Of a DNA stretch of 21,606 nt, positions 2,831 through 12,529 are shown in pieces. Made by a program: the position numbers and the translations under genes. Source of the stretch: a virus; the IMG/VR virus record IMGVR_UViG_3300009149_000341, positions 1-21,606 of that record; one strand, written 5' to 3'. The notes beneath the pieces were generated by a model, which had not been told where the DNA came from, searched no databases, and worked only from the letters and a program-made list of their open reading frames with translations. Each line of letters starts with the position of its first letter. Position 1 is the first letter of the stretch.

Positions 2831-3478
2831 TTACCTAGTCCCAAAGGTCTCAACACACCTGCAGTTGATATCCTTCTCACCTGGGTACATTGAACCGTCA
2901 GAATAGGGCTCATCAAAGGCTACTGTCTCTCCATCAAGAGCAGCATGCTCGTCTCTTACTCTATCATCACGACTGCTCAACCAACTGTGAGTCTTCACTA
3001 TGCTAGACTGCCTGGCGGCTTCCCTCTGCCCGGCTCCAGCAGCATGATTTACCTCAGTGCGGGCTACTCGCATAGCCTTGTACGCATTGTTGTCAGCATA
3101 GAACTGCCTGACATTCTTGGCGATCTGTGAAGTAGTCAGATTTTCTTCGACCCCGGCAAGTATGACCCTCTTCACGTCAGCAAGGTCAGTCGCCAGAATT
3201 GATGTGATACTCTCAGCTCCATTCTTGGCAATCCACGCCCGGATGGCCTCACTTGTTGGATCAAACTCCCACTTGAATTCCTCTGGACCCATTGAGACCT
3301 TTGCCCCCAAGTCATCAGCAATCTCCTCTCCGAAATCCTCAATGAGAGCAAGGTGGATTGCCGTCAGTGTCTTCTCCCACTGGGGCTGCTGAGCCTTTAT
3401 AGCCTTCTTGGCTGCAGCTGCCAACGAAGCAGCTGACTTGCTCCTGTAATATGACGAGGCTCCAAGCTTCAGGTTCAT
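2831..3478 (-). CDS. Mu F-like / SPP1 gp7-like head morphogenesis protein
   Basis: This 215-residue minor capsid protein probably enters the head with the portal during assembly. The C-terminal half shows the family signature: VARTEVNHAAGAGQ (about 138-151), W166, SSRDDRVRDEHAALDGE (168-184) and YPGEKDINCRC (198-208). The N-terminal half is helical and Lys/Ala-rich. The start chosen is ATG at 3478, overlapping the upstream TGA as TGATG, which suggests translational coupling. A GTG at 3505 would add nine residues but overlap the neighbour further. In many phages this domain is fused to or follows the portal. Here the portal carries a methyltransferase instead and a small cysteine-rich gene intervenes. 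Confidence 0.85.
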   Translation of the reverse strand: MNLKLGASSYYRSKSAASLAAAAKKAIKAQQPQWEKTLTAIHLALIEDFGEEIADDLGAKVSMGPEEFKWEFDPTSEAIRAWIAKNGAESITSILATDLADVKRVILAGVEENLTTSQIAKNVRQFYADNNAYKAMRVARTEVNHAAGAGQREAARQSSIVKTHSWLSSRDDRVRDEHAALDGETVAFDEPYSDGSMYPGEKDINCRCVETFGTR

Positions 3479-3687
3479 CACACTCTTGCCTTTCTCCCTA
3501 AGCACTTACCATCAGCATCGAGATGGACATCCATCGACTTACAGTGGCCTCCCTCATTCCATTGGCAATCATCGTCATCACAAGTCAGCGAGACCTTGCC
3601 GAGTTCACACCCTTCTTTGGTCCAGTGATTGCACTGCGTTGCCTGGCATATCCAACGGCCATCCTGCTTCACATAGTCGCAGGTCAT
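3478..3687 (-). CDS. Small eight-cysteine protein, possibly DUF1540-like
   Basis: The 69-residue product has cysteines at 3, 14, 19, 27, 36, 41, 49 and 62 plus His21 and His48. The pattern looks like two consecutive small metal-binding units. The second (SLTCDDDDCQWNEGGHCKSMDVHLDADGKC without its first residues) resembles the C-x4-C-x7-C-x12-C layout of DUF1540 domains. That resemblance is from memory of the family and is unverified. Its ATG overlaps the portal stop as ATGA and its stop overlaps the next start as TGATG, so it is translationally coupled to portal and Mu-F-like genes. A structural, chaperone or metal-dependent role in head assembly is possible, but no function can be assigned. 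Confidence 0.8.
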   Translation of the reverse strand: MTCDYVKQDGRWICQATQCNHWTKEGCELGKVSLTCDDDDCQWNEGGHCKSMDVHLDADGKCLGRKARV

Positions 3688-5750
3688 GCAACCTCCAGCA
3701 ACGCCACGAGGATCTTATGCTTCTCTCCGAACTCATCAAAGTTCTCCTCTTGCTCAGAGTAGATGTCCACAATAGAGAAACCCACCTCTTTCACTAGAGT
3801 GGTGAAAGCTTCCATGGTGGTGTACTCCTCTCGACTCCCATCTACTAGCTGTGTGTCTGCATAGAGATAGATGAAGGCTACCCCAGAAGGCATCAACACC
3901 CTGTGCACCTCTGGTATGGACTTCATCAGGTCACTAGCGTGGAGGACGGACAATGAGAACACTGAGCCAAACTCCTCGTCATTGAAGGGAAGCTCTTCTG
4001 CATTAGCTACCATAAAGTCCACAGGCACTTCTGCTTCCTTGGCGTTCTCCTTGGCTAGCTTGATAGCACTAGGTGCCACGTCAATAGCTGTAACCTTCAG
4101 CTTGGCCCTAGCGAAGAATATGCTGTCCCTACCATTACCGCAGCCTATCTCTAGGACAGAGGGCAGCTTTCGCTCCTCCAGCTCCTTGATAAACTCCTGA
4201 GCAAACAGGGAGGGGTCCATATCGACAGCCCAATGAGGAGGGTCATCACTATATGCGGCTTCCCAGTCCCTTGGAGTCATCGCCTTCGCCTTATGTGCAC
4301 TCAAGGCCTTCCCCACGGCCACTCCTTCTGCCTTGTAGAGTGGTTCAATCTTCTGACTCACTACCTTCCACCAGTTCACCCTCCGCTGGTCTATCCGCTT
4401 CCAATGAGCGGCCTTTGCCTCTTCTGTTTGCAGATTGAGTGACTTGTAATCAGGAGAAGTCAGCAGTAGTTTCTCCGGCTCCTCCTCTTCTTCTTCTGTA
4501 GAAGGAGTGCCAGTATCTCCGACAACTGTGAGGTTGAGAGGCAGATAACCCTTGTCTGATCCAGGGAACTCGTCAAAGCCCATCTCCAGCCTGGCATTGA
4601 TCTGGTCAAAGGGTACTCCCAGTGACCACAACGTCTTTGCCTGATTGACCTTGTCACTATAATCTCCCCGGAGAGCTACAACCCTCGAAGTGTCATAGTC
4701 CACAGTGATTCCACCTCCGTAGATGGAGGGGACCTTGAGATTCAGTGTGGACTTAACATCTTCCAACAGGGGAATGATAGTGTCCTGGTAGAGGCCTCTG
4801 CGAGCCTCTGCTACGTTGTTATAGGTTGAAGCACTCTTATCACCCAACCACCACCCATCCAGCCCAAAGGCAGTTGCTATAGCCCTCAGGTTGGACAACC
4901 GTGATGCTATGTAGTCCATCTCAACAACCGTCTGACCCATCTGTTCCCACTTGGCACCACTACCAACCACCCAGGGCTCACGCCGCTTCTGCTTCCCCAG
5001 GTACTTCTCCCTCACCTGGCGGGAGGCTTCCTCAAACTGTTCCTGATTCAGAGGGACAGCAAAGGTGAAGACGCCATCAGGCGTCCCTCGGTTCTGCATA
5101 CTGATCTTCTGCGTATCCTGCATCTCATTATCAGTATCAACCACCCGAGCTGCAGCTGCCAGAGCCCCGGTTCCCCAGTATGGATTGGCTGGATCCATCT
5201 GCATGAAGTGCCAGAACTGTTTAGGTGGCACATCAATCTGCTGGTTGGGAAGGGTAACTCGCCACCCCTTGAGCCATTCACTGATGTTAGCTGATGGGAT
5301 GGGCTGAACCAGGTCTGGCATAACTGTCCATATCTCCCTGACTCTATGGCGGACCACCAGGGGTTGCAACAGTGCATTACCTGCTAGCAAGAGGTGAGAT
5401 ATCAGGAACTCCATCATGTCCTGGCCAGAGAAGAAGGGATTGGGACGTTGCATTATCAATGTGAAATCGTGATCAACAATCTCCTCACCCTTCTTGTCCA
5501 GCACAATCCATGGAATGACGGAGGCGGACTGCACGATGAGGCGCACAGCCCGGTAGACGTAGACGCTCATCTTGTACCCATCGCGGGTAGCCTTCTGAAC
5601 AGTCATGTCCGTCCAGATTGGAACGTCAGGCATACGGTTGGACATGGCGTGGAGAAGAGGACCTTGGCCAGGTGCTTTCAGTGCCTGTCGAGATGCTCCC
5701 GGCAACAGAGCTAGCGCCACTCGACTCCTGACAGTATCAAGTATCGACAT
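3684..5750 (-). CDS. Portal protein fused to a C-terminal class I SAM-dependent methyltransferase
   Basis: One uninterrupted 688-residue frame contains two proteins' worth of sequence. Residues about 1-415 are an HK97-type portal: VYRAVRLIVQSASVIPW, the (H)DFTLIMQRPNPFFSG region, LLLAGNALL, and the clip and stem region with AFGLDGWWLGDKSASTYNN. An acidic run of six Glu (419-424) and a helical linker (about 445-490) follow. Residues about 490-688 are a full class I methyltransferase: DWEAAYSDDPPHW, motif I LEIGCGNGR (533-541), acidic motif II with D557 in VTAIDVAP, AEELPFND, and VFSLSVLHASD. There is no DNA-methylase NPPY or DPPY motif, so a protein or small-molecule substrate is likelier. AGGAG lies about 8 bases from ATG 5750 and overlaps the terminase stop. 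Most phage portals end near residue 400-500, or carry a Mu-F domain here instead. Confidence 0.92.
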   Translation of the reverse strand: MSILDTVRSRVALALLPGASRQALKAPGQGPLLHAMSNRMPDVPIWTDMTVQKATRDGYKMSVYVYRAVRLIVQSASVIPWIVLDKKGEEIVDHDFTLIMQRPNPFFSGQDMMEFLISHLLLAGNALLQPLVVRHRVREIWTVMPDLVQPIPSANISEWLKGWRVTLPNQQIDVPPKQFWHFMQMDPANPYWGTGALAAAARVVDTDNEMQDTQKISMQNRGTPDGVFTFAVPLNQEQFEEASRQVREKYLGKQKRREPWVVGSGAKWEQMGQTVVEMDYIASRLSNLRAIATAFGLDGWWLGDKSASTYNNVAEARRGLYQDTIIPLLEDVKSTLNLKVPSIYGGGITVDYDTSRVVALRGDYSDKVNQAKTLWSLGVPFDQINARLEMGFDEFPGSDKGYLPLNLTVVGDTGTPSTEEEEEEPEKLLLTSPDYKSLNLQTEEAKAAHWKRIDQRRVNWWKVVSQKIEPLYKAEGVAVGKALSAHKAKAMTPRDWEAAYSDDPPHWAVDMDPSLFAQEFIKELEERKLPSVLEIGCGNGRDSIFFARAKLKVTAIDVAPSAIKLAKENAKEAEVPVDFMVANAEELPFNDEEFGSVFSLSVLHASDLMKSIPEVHRVLMPSGVAFIYLYADTQLVDGSREEYTTMEAFTTLVKEVGFSIVDIYSEQEENFDEFGEKHKILVALLEVA

Positions 5751-5760
5751 CTATAATCTC

Positions 5761-7074
5761 CTATCCAACCATGAACGGTGGGTGTTCCCGAATCCCCGAC
5801 AGGTCCTCAAGTGCTCCCGAGAGTGCATCAACCTGATCATCATGAGAGCCTGAAGGGAACAACTCCAGTTCATCCAACAGTGCTACATTCCAGGGAGCCC
5901 GGACGATCTTGATATTGCCGGCCTCCGCCTGACTAGCGACAGGATTGGCGCGGAGCTCTTTTGGTCCTGTTGATGGGATTCCTGCAAAGTCATAGCCCAT
6001 CAACACTCTGCGCCGGTAATCATCAATGACGGTAATCCCACTAGAGCCCGGCTCCTGTTCCATCCGGACCTTCACGTACTTCCCATCCAGCTGAGCAGTC
6101 TGCTTGATGAGCTGTTCTGTTGCATTGGAAGAGCTTCGTACCCTCCGCACATCCATGATATAGAGGACGTTGTTGGTGGACTTCCCCAGCTTCAGCCCTA
6201 CAGTCCAATCAGGGTCCTTGCCAGGCTTAGCCTCAGTAGCTGCCATGTCCCATCGACGTACTGCAGACACCTCCACTGGAGCCTCGTCAACGATCCCAAA
6301 CCACTCCCGGCGAAACTTGTTGCCACCATGCCGTGCAGTCCAGTCTCCTTCCTCGATCTGACGCCGGGTGATTGGATCCAACTCTGCCAGAGACCTGCGA
6401 TACTGCTCTGCATCGATATGAGGATTGTCACGGATACGTGCAGGGAGAAAGATGCGGTCAGTAGTCTTCTCATCCATGAATCGCCGTTTCACCCAATCAT
6501 GACCAATACCTCCTGGGTTGGATGCACTCCTCATCCTGATAGGAATGTCAGAGTTAGCATGCCGCCGGAGCCGACCAAACATGAACGTGTAGTCAGATTC
6601 AGGGAACTGGGTGAGTTCATCAAATGCAACGAAGTGAAATGCTGCACTCTGATAACGGTACTTGTCCCGTACATTGTCCATATATCCAAAGGTGACAGTT
6701 GCTCCTGATGGGAAGTGCCAGGTCTTCTCAAGATCAGACCATCGTGCATCTGTATTCATCAGCCATTCAGATGCCATATCCATCAAGGCTCCGGGTAGAG
6801 AGAGGTCTGTGTATGTCTTGCGGATGATGATTGCAGCATAGTCTTTGGTGTCTACATACTGCAATGCACTGATAAGAAGTGCTGTGGACTTCCCAGGGCC
6901 ACCTGCACCACCAAAGAGGACTTCAAGATGGGGTAAGAGAAGGAAGGCTAGTTGACGTGAGGTAGGTGTTACCGGAATGTATCGAGTCCAAGCAAGAGAC
7001 AGTGTATCAATAGAAGGACCGAGGTTCCAGTTGATGGAGGAGTCCTTACCACGTACAACTGTTGGTGCTAGCAT
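5761..7074 (-). CDS. Terminase large subunit
   Basis: This 437-residue ATPase-nuclease cuts concatemeric phage DNA and pumps it through the portal. The ATPase half shows Walker A GGAGGPGKST (55-64), Walker B FVAFDE (148-153) and the coupling motif SASNPGG (183-189). The nuclease half shows an RNase H-like set: RRWDMAAT with D276, QEPGSSG with E341, and GSHDDQVDALSGA with D412, D413 and D416. The length is normal for the family. ATG 7074 is preceded by AAGGGAG, which overlaps the TerS stop. All expected catalytic residues are present, so it should be active. Whether packaging is cos or headful cannot be decided from the window. Confidence 0.96.
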   Translation of the reverse strand: MLAPTVVRGKDSSINWNLGPSIDTLSLAWTRYIPVTPTSRQLAFLLLPHLEVLFGGAGGPGKSTALLISALQYVDTKDYAAIIIRKTYTDLSLPGALMDMASEWLMNTDARWSDLEKTWHFPSGATVTFGYMDNVRDKYRYQSAAFHFVAFDELTQFPESDYTFMFGRLRRHANSDIPIRMRSASNPGGIGHDWVKRRFMDEKTTDRIFLPARIRDNPHIDAEQYRRSLAELDPITRRQIEEGDWTARHGGNKFRREWFGIVDEAPVEVSAVRRWDMAATEAKPGKDPDWTVGLKLGKSTNNVLYIMDVRRVRSSSNATEQLIKQTAQLDGKYVKVRMEQEPGSSGITVIDDYRRRVLMGYDFAGIPSTGPKELRANPVASQAEAGNIKIVRAPWNVALLDELELFPSGSHDDQVDALSGALEDLSGIREHPPFMVG

Positions 7075-7082
7075 CGTCTCCC

Positions 7083-7646
7083 TTAGTTAGGGCTGAACTG
7101 GATTGCTCCACAAGTGACAAGAGCCTCAAGCGCCGGTCTCAGTTCATCCTGACCAATTACCTTCATCTCCTGTTTGATAGCACCACCGTCAGCTCCAGTA
7201 ACCTCTGTGTGATGCCGATCTCTCCAATAAGATGGCTGACGGTTCTTCAGCCAGAATATCTGTGCAACAGTATCTGGGAGTGCCTGCTTCACTACGGTCT
7301 TGACCTTGATGGCAGGGATCTTCTCTCCATCTGTTCCAGCCACCACGATCTTCTCATAGGTGATCTCTTCATACTGGTAGCCCATTGCACGCTCATACAG
7401 TCGTTTGACTACTCTACCATCAGCAGGATTCCGGCCATCTTTTATAGCACTTTTGAACGCGGGGTAAGTCCTCATCCATTTCTCAATAGAGGGGAGACTG
7501 ACATTGAAGACACCTGCAAGCTGCTCATTGGTCAAACCCAACAGGCTGAGCTTATGGGCTGTAGGTACGTACTCATCCCGGTACAAGGTGGGGGCTCCAA
7601 CCTTCTTGTGGGTCCTTCTGACCAGTGGTGGTTTCGTTCTTACCAT
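7083..7646 (-). CDS. Terminase small subunit
   Basis: The 187-residue product is the DNA-recognition subunit of the packaging motor. Residues about 34-60 form a helix-turn-helix (LSLLGLTNEQLAGVFNVSLP followed by SIEKWMRTYP), then AIKDGRNPADGRVVKRLYERA and AMGYQYEE. Further on, LPDTVAQIFWLKNRQPSYWRD is a block typical of phage TerS proteins. The start chosen is ATG 7646, with AGGGA about 8 bases upstream. A GTG at 7652 lies too close to that site. It is the first gene of the leftward operon and overlaps the large-subunit ribosome binding site. The repeat-rich DNA immediately upstream could contain its binding or packaging site. Confidence 0.9.
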   Translation of the reverse strand: MVRTKPPLVRRTHKKVGAPTLYRDEYVPTAHKLSLLGLTNEQLAGVFNVSLPSIEKWMRTYPAFKSAIKDGRNPADGRVVKRLYERAMGYQYEEITYEKIVVAGTDGEKIPAIKVKTVVKQALPDTVAQIFWLKNRQPSYWRDRHHTEVTGADGGAIKQEMKVIGQDELRPALEALVTCGAIQFSPN

Positions 7647-7682
7647 GATCACTTCCCTGTGTAGCTTATTCTATATGGAGAA

Positions 7683-7768: not shown

Positions 7769-8161
7769 ATGATGACGACAGCACAGGTTCCCCAGCTTCC
7801 CCACATGAAGAACGTCCGGCTTGGTCAGCAGGGTGAGAAGATGGCCAAGGCTGCCCTGAAGACTCACTTCACCAACGTCCGCTCACTCAACGCTATTCAT
7901 CACAACGCACCCTTCGACTATACAGGGATTGACCGCGTTACAGGCATTCGCGTCGGGATCGAAGTCAAGACTGTTCGCAAAGACACTGGCAAGCTGGTCC
8001 ACATCGAAGCCCCCGCAATGGCCCGTAAGGTGACATTCCTGAAAGAGACAAATCGTGATGCAGGAGTTGTCCTCCTCATCGTCAAGAACGGCACCACCCA
8101 ATTCTACCTTGCACCACTAAAGAGCCACATCAGCACAGGCTGCTTAGTTGAGATCAAGTGA
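7769..8161 (+). CDS. PD-(D/E)XK nuclease-superfamily protein
   Basis: The 130-residue product carries a probable PD-(D/E)XK core: GQQGEKMAKAAL helix with E23, NAPFD with D50, then GIEVKTV with E65 and K67. This is followed by a strand-helix region ending in DAGVVLLIVKNG and FYLAPL. The layout fits small resolvase-like or restriction-like nucleases of this fold. The substrate is unknown, and early phage position suggests recombination, host DNA breakdown or anti-defence. It starts at ATGATG (7769 or 7772) with no ribosome binding site, right at the predicted transcription start. An internal ATG at 7805 also lacks a good site. It is the first gene of the rightward arm. Confidence 0.72.
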   Translation: MMTTAQVPQLPHMKNVRLGQQGEKMAKAALKTHFTNVRSLNAIHHNAPFDYTGIDRVTGIRVGIEVKTVRKDTGKLVHIEAPAMARKVTFLKETNRDAGVVLLIVKNGTTQFYLAPLKSHISTGCLVEIK

Positions 8162-8177
8162 TAGGAGGATCAAAACA

Positions 8178-8444
8178 ATGACAACAGGAATACACACCCT
8201 AGAAGTAAGCACCCTCAATCAGGATCCTACTCTCTCCGGCCCCTATCCTCTCTGCCCAGTGGACAACAGCAAGCTCGTTGAGCAGGAGTTCCTCTCAATG
8301 GGCCCAGGCTACAGCGAGTTTGAGAGCGGGGAATCTGAGTGGGTCTGCCCCATCTGCCAGCGCCACTACCACATCAGCCACGAGATGAGTTGCGTTCTAG
8401 CCAATCTAGACGAGGAGCAGGCAAAGGAGGTGACAACCGTCTAA
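8178..8444 (+). CDS. Small zinc-ribbon-like protein
   Basis: The 88-residue product has CPVD (C26) and CPICQRHYH (C57, C60, H63, H65), so a single zinc site built from C26, C57, C60 and a histidine is plausible. The start is ATG 8178 with AGGAGG (8163-8168) nine bases upstream. No enzyme motif is visible. Small zinc proteins at this early location are often host-takeover factors, but that is inference. Its stop codon TAA lies at the 5' base of the leader RNA structure described at 8444-8505. Family not recognised. Confidence 0.75.
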   Translation: MTTGIHTLEVSTLNQDPTLSGPYPLCPVDNSKLVEQEFLSMGPGYSEFESGESEWVCPICQRHYHISHEMSCVLANLDEEQAKEVTTV

Positions 8445-8943: not shown

Positions 8944-9357
8944 ATGGCAAGGGAAATGAAAACCGCTGAGGGACTCACCCACATCCGCTGGGTGTGGGAA
9001 CACCAACTAGACTGGATCCACCACGTCATGCGGACATCTAACAATTCAAAGGGATACAAGTACTGTCTCGTGCCCTCACGGTACAGTTCTCAGCTCTTCA
9101 GCCTACGTACCAACATGAAGCTCACACAACGACTGGCGAACCGCCTATATTCCCGACCGTTCACCACAGCGATTGGCAAGTATTTTGCCAACAGGGAGAC
9201 GGAGGAGGAATGGCAGCCGGGGAAACCAGTCATGCGCAGAACAAAAGGGAAACCAGTCATGCACAGAACAAAATGGGAGGATAGGAGGAAGAATGGGAGC
9301 AACAGAGAGACACTGGATGGTGAGGTCAGCAAGCGAGACGCTGCTTACGCTCCGTAA
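8944..9357 (+). CDS. Hypothetical basic protein with a repeated C-terminal segment
   Basis: The 137-residue product starts at ATG 8944 after AGGAGG at about 8932-8937. The first 75 residues look like a compact domain (GLTHIRWVWEHQLDWIHHVM, then YKYCLVPSRYSSQLFSL). The C-terminal part is low-complexity and basic, with two adjacent nine-residue copies of GKPVMxRTK encoded by a 27-base tandem duplication at 9220-9273. The last 65 bases overlap the next gene in another frame. That overlap, unusual among the short overlaps here, may mean the tail was extended by the duplication and loss of an earlier stop. No family recognised. Confidence 0.6.
   Translation: MAREMKTAEGLTHIRWVWEHQLDWIHHVMRTSNNSKGYKYCLVPSRYSSQLFSLRTNMKLTQRLANRLYSRPFTTAIGKYFANRETEEEWQPGKPVMRRTKGKPVMHRTKWEDRRKNGSNRETLDGEVSKRDAAYAP
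9220..9273. repeat. 27-bp tandem duplication
   Basis: Two head-to-tail 27-base units (9220-9246 and 9247-9273) differ at one base (GCGCAG versus GCACAG). The length is a multiple of three, so the frame of the host gene is kept and nine residues are repeated. The second unit ends just before the ribosome binding site (AGGAGGA, 9283-9289) of the next gene. Confidence 0.85.
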
Positions 9358-10198
9358 ACAGCTTGAAGCGTACACACCGTCTACACAGCTGGATGCTGTA
9401 CTTCAACAGCTTGACGAAGTAGAGTCAGCAGGAGAAGGTCTCGGAGATGTAACGAAGACCTTCAGGAAGTGTCTGGATGAGCAAAGCATAACACTCGCAG
9501 AAGCTGAGCTGAAGGTGGAGATCACGGGAGCAATAGAGAGCTTAGCCTCAACGCTGGAAGAGATCGGAGACGACTTGCAGGAGTCAATTGATGCGCTGCA
9601 GGAGCACTTCCAGGATAGAGCAGATGAGCTTGAAAGCAACTGGAGTTGGGTAGAGGAAACCAAACAAGCAGTTGAAGAGCTCGACGAACTCTGGAAGAGC
9701 ATCGACGACATACACTGCTCAACTTGCAATGGCCAGTACAATCCAAACGAAGCGACAGAGGATGGTGGTTGTCCTATATGCAAGAGAGCAGAGGAGGTCA
9801 AGAAATTGAGCGCTTTACCAATCGACCAGAGAGGTGGTCAGACAGCATTTGCTACAAAGGAGCAAGCACAGAAGGCATTCAACAGCTTCCTTGCTGCAGT
9901 CAAGTCTGAAGTCATTTACCTCATGCCTTCACCTTCACGAATACTCGGAGAAGAAGAGGGAATCAGCTGGAACGAGATACCGAGAGCGACCGTAATGTTT
10001 GCCTTTGAGGTGGGGTTCAACTTACCTCCACACGAATACATTGCGGAGTACACGTCACAGCCTGCTAGGCTCTCAGCCAAATTCTTTGACGACGTCAAGG
10101 CTGCTGCTTTGGAGCATCTGAAGAGTAGAGCTATCAACTGGAATAACACTCGTTCACATGGATTCGTTTATCTCGACGGAAGACAAGGAGAAGGGTAG
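9293..10198 (+). CDS. Coiled-coil protein with a central CxxC-CxxC zinc motif
   Basis: The 301-residue product starts at ATG 9293 behind AGGAGGA. Residues about 60-140 are long, charged, heptad-like helices. Then CSTC (142-145) and CPIC (160-163) make a rubredoxin-like zinc knuckle. The C-terminal half (about 170-301) is globular, with EEGISWNEIPRATVMFAFEV and aromatic residues. A longer frame extends to 9173 but its first 40 residues have no ribosome site and cross the tandem duplication. The coiled coil plus zinc hook recalls Rad50/SbcC-type dimerisation hooks in outline, but no ATPase parts exist here, so that is only a shape analogy. It lies upstream of the SNF2 helicase. Function unknown. 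Confidence 0.75.
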   Translation: MGATERHWMVRSASETLLTLRKQLEAYTPSTQLDAVLQQLDEVESAGEGLGDVTKTFRKCLDEQSITLAEAELKVEITGAIESLASTLEEIGDDLQESIDALQEHFQDRADELESNWSWVEETKQAVEELDELWKSIDDIHCSTCNGQYNPNEATEDGGCPICKRAEEVKKLSALPIDQRGGQTAFATKEQAQKAFNSFLAAVKSEVIYLMPSPSRILGEEEGISWNEIPRATVMFAFEVGFNLPPHEYIAEYTSQPARLSAKFFDDVKAAALEHLKSRAINWNNTRSHGFVYLDGRQGEG

Positions 10199-10395
10199 TG
10201 ACACAGCTATACGCTCCCGCGTCCACGTGGAACAAGTATCCAACAGCGTCACAGCTTAGCTCACTCAAACGAGCTTGGCGCATCCTCAACTACGACTACA
10301 CAGAGAGAGACCTTCCCTGGACGCGTTGGGAAGCCCGCAACGTCATTTACGATCTGTGGAACAAGGTGAGACTGCTCAAAGGGAAGCACTCATGA
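10198..10395 (+). CDS. Small hypothetical protein, 65 residues
   Basis: The start is GTG 10198, sharing one base with the upstream TAG, preceded by AAGGAGAAGGG. The product (MTQLYAPASTWNKYPTASQL...) is basic and aromatic with a helical middle (SLKRAWRIL) and end (ARNVIYDLWNKVRLLKGK). It might be a small DNA-binding or helicase-accessory protein, because its stop overlaps the helicase start by ATGA and the two are probably translationally coupled. No family recognised. Confidence 0.7.
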   Translation: MTQLYAPASTWNKYPTASQLSSLKRAWRILNYDYTERDLPWTRWEARNVIYDLWNKVRLLKGKHS

Positions 10396-12017
10396 ACACA
10401 GCATCACAATACACGGCCACTCTCAAAGGAAGTGTGATAGAGATCCGCTTTCCCTTCAATTGGGACATCCTAACAGCAGTGAAATCCATCCCTGGACGGA
10501 GATTCCAGAGTAATGGAAACGGGAAATACTGGACAGCCCCACTATCTGTTGAGGCTATCGAGATATTGAGGCAAGCGTGTTTCCAGCTGGATCCTCAACT
10601 TGAAACCTTCCTGTCCCGATCGACGACCACAATTGATGATGTAGGGGAAGTGGATGTCCAGATGAAGAAAGAGCTCTTTCCCTTCCAGCGGCAGGGTGTT
10701 GCATTCATTGAGCATCGGGATGGGCGTGCCCTCATCGGCTCTGAAATGGGGCTCGGCAAAACCATCCAAGCACTTGCATACCTTCATCTCCATCCGGAGA
10801 AGCGGCCAGCAGTAGTCGTATGCCCAGCCCATATCAAGCTGGTATGGGACAGGGAAATACGAGAGTCCATGCCTGGCCAACAGAACACTCAGATCCTCTA
10901 CGGGACTACTCCGGGACCGGTGAAGGGTGATATCATCATCGTCAACTACGATATCCTACCCCAATGGTTAGACACCTTTCTTGCACTACACCCCCAGGTG
11001 CTGATAGTGGATGAAGCCCACTACTGCAAGAACAATAAGGCACAGCGAACGAAGGCCACCAAGAAACTGGCAAGAAAGGCTCCGCATGTCCTCTGTCTCA
11101 CTGGTACACCAATTGTGAACCGGCCCATTGAGGGTTTCAACATCGTACAGATGGTGGACCGCACAGTGTTCCCTGACTTCTGGAAATATGTGCACACCTA
11201 TTGTGATGCCAGATATACAGGATTTGGGTGGGACTTCTCCGGAGCCAGCAACAAAGAGGACCTCCACGAGAAGCTACAGAGAGTGATGATACGCCACAAG
11301 AAGTCGGAAGTGCTCAAGGAGCTACCAGACAAGATTCACTCCTACATTCCGATGGAGATTAGCAACACTATGGAGTACCAGTGGGCGGAGAAGGACTTCA
11401 TCACGTATCTGCAGGAGACGAAAGGTGCCCAAGCTGCACAGAAAGCCTCTCAAGCGAAGTTCCTGGTCATGATAGAGACGCTGAAGCAGCTGGCCATCAA
11501 GGGCAAAATGACCCCAGCGATACAGTGGATCCGTGACTTCATTGAGAGCAGTGATGGCAACGGCAAGCTGGTCGTGTTTACTGTCCACAAAGAGACCGTA
11601 GAGACACTGATGAAGGAATTCAGAGACATCGCTGTCCGGGTTGACGGATCGGTCACAGAGAAGCAAAGGGAGTGGAGTATAGATGCCTTCCAGAATGACC
11701 GCAATGTCAAGCTATTCATCGGTAACATCCAAGCCGCCGGAACTGGTATCACTCTGACTGCTGCCTCATCTGTCGCATTCATTGAGCTCCCATGGGTAGC
11801 CGGGGAGCTATCTCAGGCAGAGGACCGCTGTCACAGGATCGGACAGAAGGACGCCGTCAATGTGTACTATCTACTCGCGAACGATACCATTGAAGGAAAG
11901 ATAGCGACTCTACTAGACAAGAAGAGACTGGTCTTGGACGCTGTGCTGGATGGCAGAGACGCCAAGGACTCTCCATTACTCACCGAACTGATACACTCAT
12001 ACAGGGAGGAGAAATGA
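10392..12017 (+). CDS. SNF2-family helicase, SMARCAL1-like
   Basis: The 541-residue product is a double-stranded DNA translocase. Residues about 12-50 resemble a HARP-type annealing domain (IEIRFPFNWDILTAVKSIPG and KYWTAPLS). Helicase motifs follow in order: LFPFQRQGV (Q-motif region), GSEMGLGKT (about 115-123, motif I), DEAH (about 206-209, motif II), LTGTP (motif III), LVVFTVHKET (motif IV), QAAGTGITLTAA (motif V) and QAEDRCHRIGQ (about 473-483, motif VI). SMARCAL1-like enzymes anneal RPA-coated strands and remodel stalled forks, so a role in phage replication or recombination is likely. The start is ATG 10392, overlapping the upstream stop. A longer upstream extension exists in frame but overlaps a real gene. 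Confidence 0.93.
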   Translation: MNTASQYTATLKGSVIEIRFPFNWDILTAVKSIPGRRFQSNGNGKYWTAPLSVEAIEILRQACFQLDPQLETFLSRSTTTIDDVGEVDVQMKKELFPFQRQGVAFIEHRDGRALIGSEMGLGKTIQALAYLHLHPEKRPAVVVCPAHIKLVWDREIRESMPGQQNTQILYGTTPGPVKGDIIIVNYDILPQWLDTFLALHPQVLIVDEAHYCKNNKAQRTKATKKLARKAPHVLCLTGTPIVNRPIEGFNIVQMVDRTVFPDFWKYVHTYCDARYTGFGWDFSGASNKEDLHEKLQRVMIRHKKSEVLKELPDKIHSYIPMEISNTMEYQWAEKDFITYLQETKGAQAAQKASQAKFLVMIETLKQLAIKGKMTPAIQWIRDFIESSDGNGKLVVFTVHKETVETLMKEFRDIAVRVDGSVTEKQREWSIDAFQNDRNVKLFIGNIQAAGTGITLTAASSVAFIELPWVAGELSQAEDRCHRIGQKDAVNVYYLLANDTIEGKIATLLDKKRLVLDAVLDGRDAKDSPLLTELIHSYREEK

Positions 12018-12529
12018 TCGAACAGCTCAACATGATCCGGCAGATTGCCTGGTCATACACCCGGACACATCCGGAGATGGAGTTTGATGACCTGTTCTCT
12101 GAGGCGTGTCTTGCCTGCCTTGAGGCTTCCCCTAGATATGATTCATCCAAGGGGAAGAGGACCACATACTATCATCATGTTGCACATAGCCACCTCAACA
12201 ATCTGATACAGCGGGAGTCCCGCCGGACATTCAGAGAGACAGTGGTAGATCTCTCCACATATGAAGAAGTGCTGGCAAGTGATGATCCTGAGCCAGAGGA
12301 ACGATTGGCATCTCAGCAACGATGGGAAGAGATGCTCACCATGCTGTCCCCGGAAGCACAGATGGTATGCTCCATCATAACCAATGAGAAGGCTGTGTTT
12401 CTTCCGATGGACAAGCCCAAACACTGCCGTGGTATCATCTCCCGCCTCCTGCGAGGAAGGGGATGGAGCTGGAACAGGATCAGCTGCACGTTCCAGGAAT
12501 TGAAACAGGCCACAGCAATGCTTGCCTAA
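12014..12529 (+). CDS. Sigma-70-like factor with a degenerate region 4
   Basis: The 171-residue product has a sigma region 2-like N-terminus: EFDDLFSEACLACLEASPRY followed by DSSKGKRTTYYHHVAHSHLNNLI, matching the D-L-x-Q-E-x-x-L-x-L-x-x-A pattern and the promoter-opening aromatic stretch. The C-terminus has only a vague region 4: LSPEAQMVCSII (about 111-122) and a possible recognition helix at WSWNRISCTFQELKQA (151-166). It could direct host RNA polymerase to phage promoters, for example the matched elements at 12537 and 21194, or bind DNA as a regulator. The start overlaps the helicase stop by ATGA with GGAGG just upstream. Divergence from housekeeping sigma factors is strong, so the activity is inferred. 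Confidence 0.7.
   Translation: MIEQLNMIRQIAWSYTRTHPEMEFDDLFSEACLACLEASPRYDSSKGKRTTYYHHVAHSHLNNLIQRESRRTFRETVVDLSTYEEVLASDDPEPEERLASQQRWEEMLTMLSPEAQMVCSIITNEKAVFLPMDKPKHCRGIISRLLRGRGWSWNRISCTFQELKQATAMLA

Follow-up and report, generated by a model that had tools for sequence, protein, structure and literature searches.

The fused gene and its surroundings

The window considered here is the whole 21,606-nucleotide stretch of viral DNA that was analysed (IMG/VR record IMGVR_UViG_3300009149_000341), in which a block of head genes occupies the minus strand. Read along that strand, the block comprises the terminase small subunit (7083–7652; phrog_309, 5.8e-46), the terminase large subunit (5761–7074; Pfam and PHROGs), a 688-residue open reading frame (3684–5750, with its ATG at 5750 and its stop codon at 3684–3686), a small cysteine-rich protein (3478–3687), a MuF head-morphogenesis protein (2831–3505; Pfam Phage_Mu_F, 2.1e-17), the prohead protease (2021–2815; Peptidase_S78, 2e-27) and the major capsid protein (793–2088; Phage_capsid, 1.7e-43). 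In the half of the window that is transcribed away from the head genes lie a SNF2-type helicase gene (10275–12017, plus strand) and then a gene for a sigma-70 region 2-like protein (12014–12529).

The first-pass annotation had described the 688-residue frame, without giving its strand, as an HK97-type portal continuing into a class I methyltransferase, and profile searches bear this out. The portal part (residues 1–415; 4506–5750) matches Pfam Phage_portal (PF04860) over residues 65–378 with an E-value of 7.1e-53, covering profile positions 3–309 of 321 and thus nearly the complete portal core, and also matches phrog_2662 (8e-61); the adjoining terminase large subunit and the nearby capsid gene are those expected beside a portal of this type. 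Residues 416–490 (4281–4505) form an acidic stretch and helical linker, and residues 491–688 (3687–4280) the methyltransferase domain, in which the generic class I models Methyltransf_11 and Methyltransf_25 match residues 531–627 (1.6e-20). The SAM-binding motif I, LEIGCGNGR, is found at residues 533–541 (4128–4154; alignment A2) and the acidic residue at D557, both exactly where they had been placed.

Every methyltransferase copy of this family comes from a metagenomic contig. Two lines of evidence bear on the junction. A second assembly (L001) is 99.95% identical to the window across 10,892 bases, and three distinct phages (L002, L015 and L022) share the order portal, linker, methyltransferase, the portals of L002 and L015 being 62% and 59% identical to that of the window. 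The in-frame fusion is therefore real, an assembly chimera is ruled out and a chance origin is excluded; nor do related phages all encode the two parts as separate genes.

Origin of the fusion in a portal–MuF gene

The family phrog_2662 is itself a portal–MuF fusion of 717 positions. The window's portal aligns with its positions 15–524 and the next gene but one, that encoding MuF (2831–3505), with positions 496–706. In two relatives, L003 and L004, portal and MuF form a single unbroken protein. Residues 3–472 of the window's fusion are 60% identical to residues 1–466 of the L003 protein, and residues 23–224 of the window's MuF protein are 66% identical to its residues 480–681 (blastp). Aligned with L004, the two halves from the window meet exactly, one ending at 215 and the other starting at 216. 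Both halves thus find their match in one protein: a cassette of the methyltransferase and the small gene split an ancestral portal–MuF gene. Judged by these alignments, the window's MuF gene is the C-terminal half of that fusion, now standing alone, and the methyltransferase occupies the place that MuF has in the relatives. L003 and L004, which share the portal, linker and MuF domain but lack both the methyltransferase and the cysteine-rich gene, are direct empty-site relatives.

The linker appears in a different light as a result. An acidic, helical linker had been proposed, and it is indeed present, but it is no special hinge: the segment AHWKRIDQRRVNWW corresponds to the portal-to-MuF linker of L003 and L004 (alignment A1, blastp) and on that alignment is the old linker, cut off by the cassette. 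In L006 the same cassette sits ~55 residues earlier, ahead of the linker.

Other elements are found in the same region. In L006 the MuF gene is broken by a 216-residue ORF (9294–9944); a CxxC pair stands close to the beginning of this ORF, which may represent an inserted homing endonuclease. The terminase gene of L003 (3068–4954), when read by eye, seems to be interrupted by an intein (CVAEGTLVTTH...HNC), and an HNH-like ORF (7786–8439) comes after the portal–MuF gene; this head region seems to attract homing elements as a hotspot. The portal–methyltransferase protein of L030 (2116–5796) also contains an intein, with a LAGLIDADG domain (Pfam).

A cysteine-rich partner gene

The 69-residue protein encoded directly downstream of the methyltransferase (3478–3687, minus strand), which the first-pass annotation had overlooked, belongs to a family of ~70-residue proteins whose seven invariant cysteines fall into two similar C-x4-C...C...V-x-L blocks, represented in the window by the motifs CxxxxC...C and MDVHLDADGKC. 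Its start overlaps the methyltransferase stop codon (ATGA); across the family the two genes mostly overlap by 1 or 4 bases, which suggests coupled translation. The gene adjoins 46 of the 55 methyltransferase loci found, and of the nine loci without it four end at a contig edge and five belong to a subclade of giant proteins (L027, L032/L074, L071 and L077). An independent search with the cysteine-rich alignment alone gave the same picture from the other side, the methyltransferase lying immediately upstream in 49 of 49 loci. No match to the gene was found among the phage and plasmid records of the collections.

The sequence resembles DUF1540 weakly: the window's protein scores 18.9 bits against a Pfam gathering cut-off of 22.1, and 7 of 35 family members match at E<=0.01 (best 7.6e-6). 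A sequence match to Trm112 is absent, and the predicted structure, at a pLDDT of 48, was set aside. The cysteine pattern suggests that the protein is probably metal-binding. Members of the family vary far less than immunity proteins typically do.

The methyltransferase domain

The domain has the Rossmann-like fold, the motif I and the acidic residue after strand 2 that define class I SAM methyltransferases. Kept across alignment A2 are the SAM motif, the acidic residue and an N-terminal cap (W...Y...HW...PS). Domain positions G46 and G48–F56 are invariant, partly by construction, as GNGRDSIF was one of the search patterns; more divergent members may for the same reason be missing. The motif [DNS]PP[YFW] of DNA N6-adenine and N4-cytosine methylases is absent, the corresponding region reading FSLSVLHS/T, so that a DNA methylase is ruled out; the first-pass annotation had judged DNA modification less likely from the lack of such a motif. 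By its sequence motifs, the enzyme is predicted to be a class I SAM methyltransferase of the small-molecule or protein kind.

An AlphaFold model of the domain has a mean pLDDT of 93.7, and its nearest folds are small-molecule methyltransferases: 7bgg, a heterocyclic toxin methyltransferase (Z 23.0), and 6mro (Z 22.3) by VIA-align. Ecm18 (4nec), the echinomycin disulfide S-methyltransferase, is among the closest folds by Foldseek and VIA-align, and weaker matches include the TehB and arsenite-methyltransferase families. As modelled, this is a fold common to many class I enzymes, and it does not name the substrate. A PADLOC match to mad2 (1e-21) was not accepted as a link to defence, since it is no better than the generic Pfam methyltransferase matches.

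The dN/dS values lie mostly between 0.04 and 0.2, with one exception among the measurable pairs (0.34, a close pair), and at the amino-acid level the methyltransferase is better conserved than its portal in most pairs. Together with motif conservation, this rules out a decayed domain.

Distribution and carriers

Used as the query against viral contigs, the methyltransferase domain alone recovered 28 loci, whilst an alignment of 23 domains recovered 55. A tree was built with 48 different viral domains. The fusion proves to be recurrent and not tied to portals, a point missed at first reading. Thirty of the 48 domains are C-terminal extensions of portals from five families (PF04860, PF06074, PF06381, phrog_10963 and phrog_30703), with 18 on PF04860, six on Portal_Mu, three on Phage_portal_3, two on phrog_10963 and one on phrog_30703 followed by MuF; the order portal–MuF–methyltransferase is found only in this last case (L029). 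One domain is attached to a prohead protease (L026), four follow a ~60-residue helical segment that has a gene of its own in L045, and four lie within giant proteins. The remaining nine are separate genes, including one cut by a contig end (L016), so fusion is not obligatory.

The viral domains form one clade, set apart from the cellular ones with a support of 100/100, and the tree requires 15–16 changes of partner class. Methyltransferases that are 56–63% identical are found on unrelated portals of just 22–24% identity. Covariation between enzyme and partner gave a Mantel r of 0.38 overall and 0.50 in the PF04860 subset, but 0.75 with the portal, which indicates that inside the PF04860 family the enzyme has mostly been inherited together with its portal.

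The giant carriers L032/L074, L071 and L077 are phage proteins of more than 2,300 residues, and RadC or LPD38 domains occur in two of these. In L047 (1–6615), ~2,000 residues precede the methyltransferase domain, a part that gave no match in Pfam or PHROG.

A scan of 85k cellular genomes with a single 8-residue pattern, by which divergent copies could be missed, returned only ordinary cellular-type methyltransferases, 21–43% identical, with no cysteine-rich gene nearby, and a prophage or host link was dropped. A cultured representative was likewise rejected: portal matches covered at most 70% of the query, none reaching 80%, and methyltransferase matches in phage records were weak (<60% identity) and partial.

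A proposed head-borne enzyme and its alternatives

What has to be explained is an in-frame fusion with intact motifs, under purifying selection, recurring on unrelated head proteins and tightly paired with a second gene. The explanation we favour, with moderate confidence and partly by analogy, is a conserved two-gene module of tailed-phage heads in which an enzyme would be held in the head and used at infection. Its first gene would encode a head protein, here the portal, ending in a class I SAM methyltransferase of the non-DNA type, and its second the ~70-residue cysteine-rich, probably metal-binding protein, usually translationally coupled to the first. Having entered and split an ancestral portal–MuF gene, the cassette would use the head protein (12 copies in the case of the portal) as a carrier that keeps the enzyme inside the procapsid. 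The C-terminal end of portals faces the head interior in established portal structures, and the carriers of the methyltransferase (portals, portal–MuF, the prohead protease and giant packaged-type proteins) mostly share that location, which favours a head-carried enzyme. We infer the substrate, the role of the partner, the position within the head and the delivery as follows: the cysteine-rich protein may bind the enzyme as activator, adaptor or restraint, and upon entry of the genome into the cell the enzyme may act on a host or co-packaged target other than DNA. The analogy with MuF and portal effector fusions makes delivery with the genome probable. Since a portal is not ordinarily ejected, such delivery would require cleavage or a MuF-like route.

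A more specific version, held tentatively, is that this is an undescribed head enzyme system, a methyltransferase with a dedicated cysteine-rich metal-binding partner repeatedly joined to unrelated head-interior proteins, present at ~12 copies per virion at the portal and acting on a host protein or metabolite at DNA entry, possibly against defence.

The strongest alternative, although an unlikely one, is that nothing is injected and that the tethered enzyme methylates the capsid, the scaffold, MuF or its partner during procapsid maturation. The gene does adjoin the MuF, protease and capsid genes, and in L026 the enzyme is fused to the protease, which is active solely in the procapsid. Separate copies, however, also occur in phages with sheath-like neighbours (the sheath being read by eye), and both the carriers and the surrounding head genes come from unrelated families, leaving no common structural substrate save the cysteine-rich protein.

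That protein might itself be the substrate, methylated for instance on cysteine or at its N-terminus, or might present a bound metal or metalloid for methylation, the product being a small modified packaged protein. We regard this as less probable again. Near-exclusive pairing, translational coupling and seven invariant cysteines would suit it, as would the likeness to 4nec and the weaker ones to TehB and arsenite methyltransferases, but such fold similarities are generic to class I methyltransferases, and the giant-protein subclade (L027, L032, L071 and L077) retains the enzyme without the cysteine-rich gene.

It is distinctly improbable that the fusion frame is incidental and that function resides in a free methyltransferase translated from an internal start. 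The window and many relatives do have an ATG at the domain boundary, and where the enzyme is a separate gene its start can be strong, as in L021 (Shine-Dalgarno score -11.1). The window's internal ATG at 4280 has a moderate score (-4.8) and, as a start site, could yield some extra free methyltransferase. In 11 fused copies, though, the stretch between 12 codons ahead of the boundary and 4 codons past it lacks a start codon, so their enzymes must be made fused; candidate internal starts in the others mostly score weakly, and the frame has been retained through the 15–16 changes of partner. The portal copy in the fusion is moreover the only one in the window, and the fusion must thus form the ring unless it is processed.

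That the pair is a mobile passenger without a head function, lodged at an insertion-tolerant portal/MuF site, is very unlikely: the insertions in L003 and L006 lie in the same region and L030 has a portal intein, but the enzyme is under strong purifying selection, has been kept over deep divergence and persists in frame on unrelated carriers.

Portals are essential dodecameric rings, usually regarded as purely structural. That one conserved enzyme, with its nearly inseparable partner, has repeatedly been joined in frame to a protease and to portals of five families suggests that selection maintains an enzymatic function in the head. The system is also a clean one to test: each of its three parts (carrier, enzyme, partner) amounts to about one domain, relatives with an empty site provide controls, and the methyl acceptor can be searched for directly.

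Comparison with known systems

Methyltransferases that depend on Trm112 (PMC5372719) likewise pair a class I enzyme with a small zinc protein, and the fold matches here include one enzyme partnered by Trm112 (6f5z); given that the cysteine-rich protein does not match Trm112 in sequence, the resemblance is one of principle only.

Another parallel is offered by the polymorphic toxins of the MuF type (Jamet et al. 2017, PMC5576092), in which a head protein from the packaging module likewise carries a C-terminal enzyme and is followed at once by a small gene. Within the head, SPP1 gp7 and other MuF proteins bind the portal (PMC5576092). Those toxins combine an N-terminal MuF domain with a C-terminal toxin, whereas here the enzyme is carried by the portal, MuF has a gene of its own, the effector shows no polymorphism and the partner is uniform and cysteine-rich. 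MuF toxins also occur in prophages, whilst no copy of the portal methyltransferase was seen in 85k cellular genomes scanned with a single pattern.

A further parallel is the group of polyvalent proteins and portal-fused effectors of Iyer et al. (2017, PMC5512222), in which a portal, MuF or another protein packaged in the virion bears an enzyme domain. The fusion fits this description, packaging being expected, and giant proteins bearing LPD38 and RadC domains contain related methyltransferases here. Portal fusions to 2H phosphoesterase, PBECR and InPase domains were published there, so that the earlier view of Mu-F/SPP1 gp7 domains as the only known portal extensions was too strong. That paper names a DNA adenine methylase in giant proteins; no mention was found in it of a non-DNA methyltransferase on portals or of a cysteine-rich partner gene. 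That effector domains can be attached to portal or MuF proteins is well accepted (PMC5512222, PMC5576092), and the principle is thus known. A literature search found no portal–methyltransferase fusion, with or without a fixed cysteine-rich partner, which is no proof of absence; as far as that search reaches, what is new here is a methyltransferase of the non-DNA kind carried on portals together with a fixed cysteine-rich partner gene.
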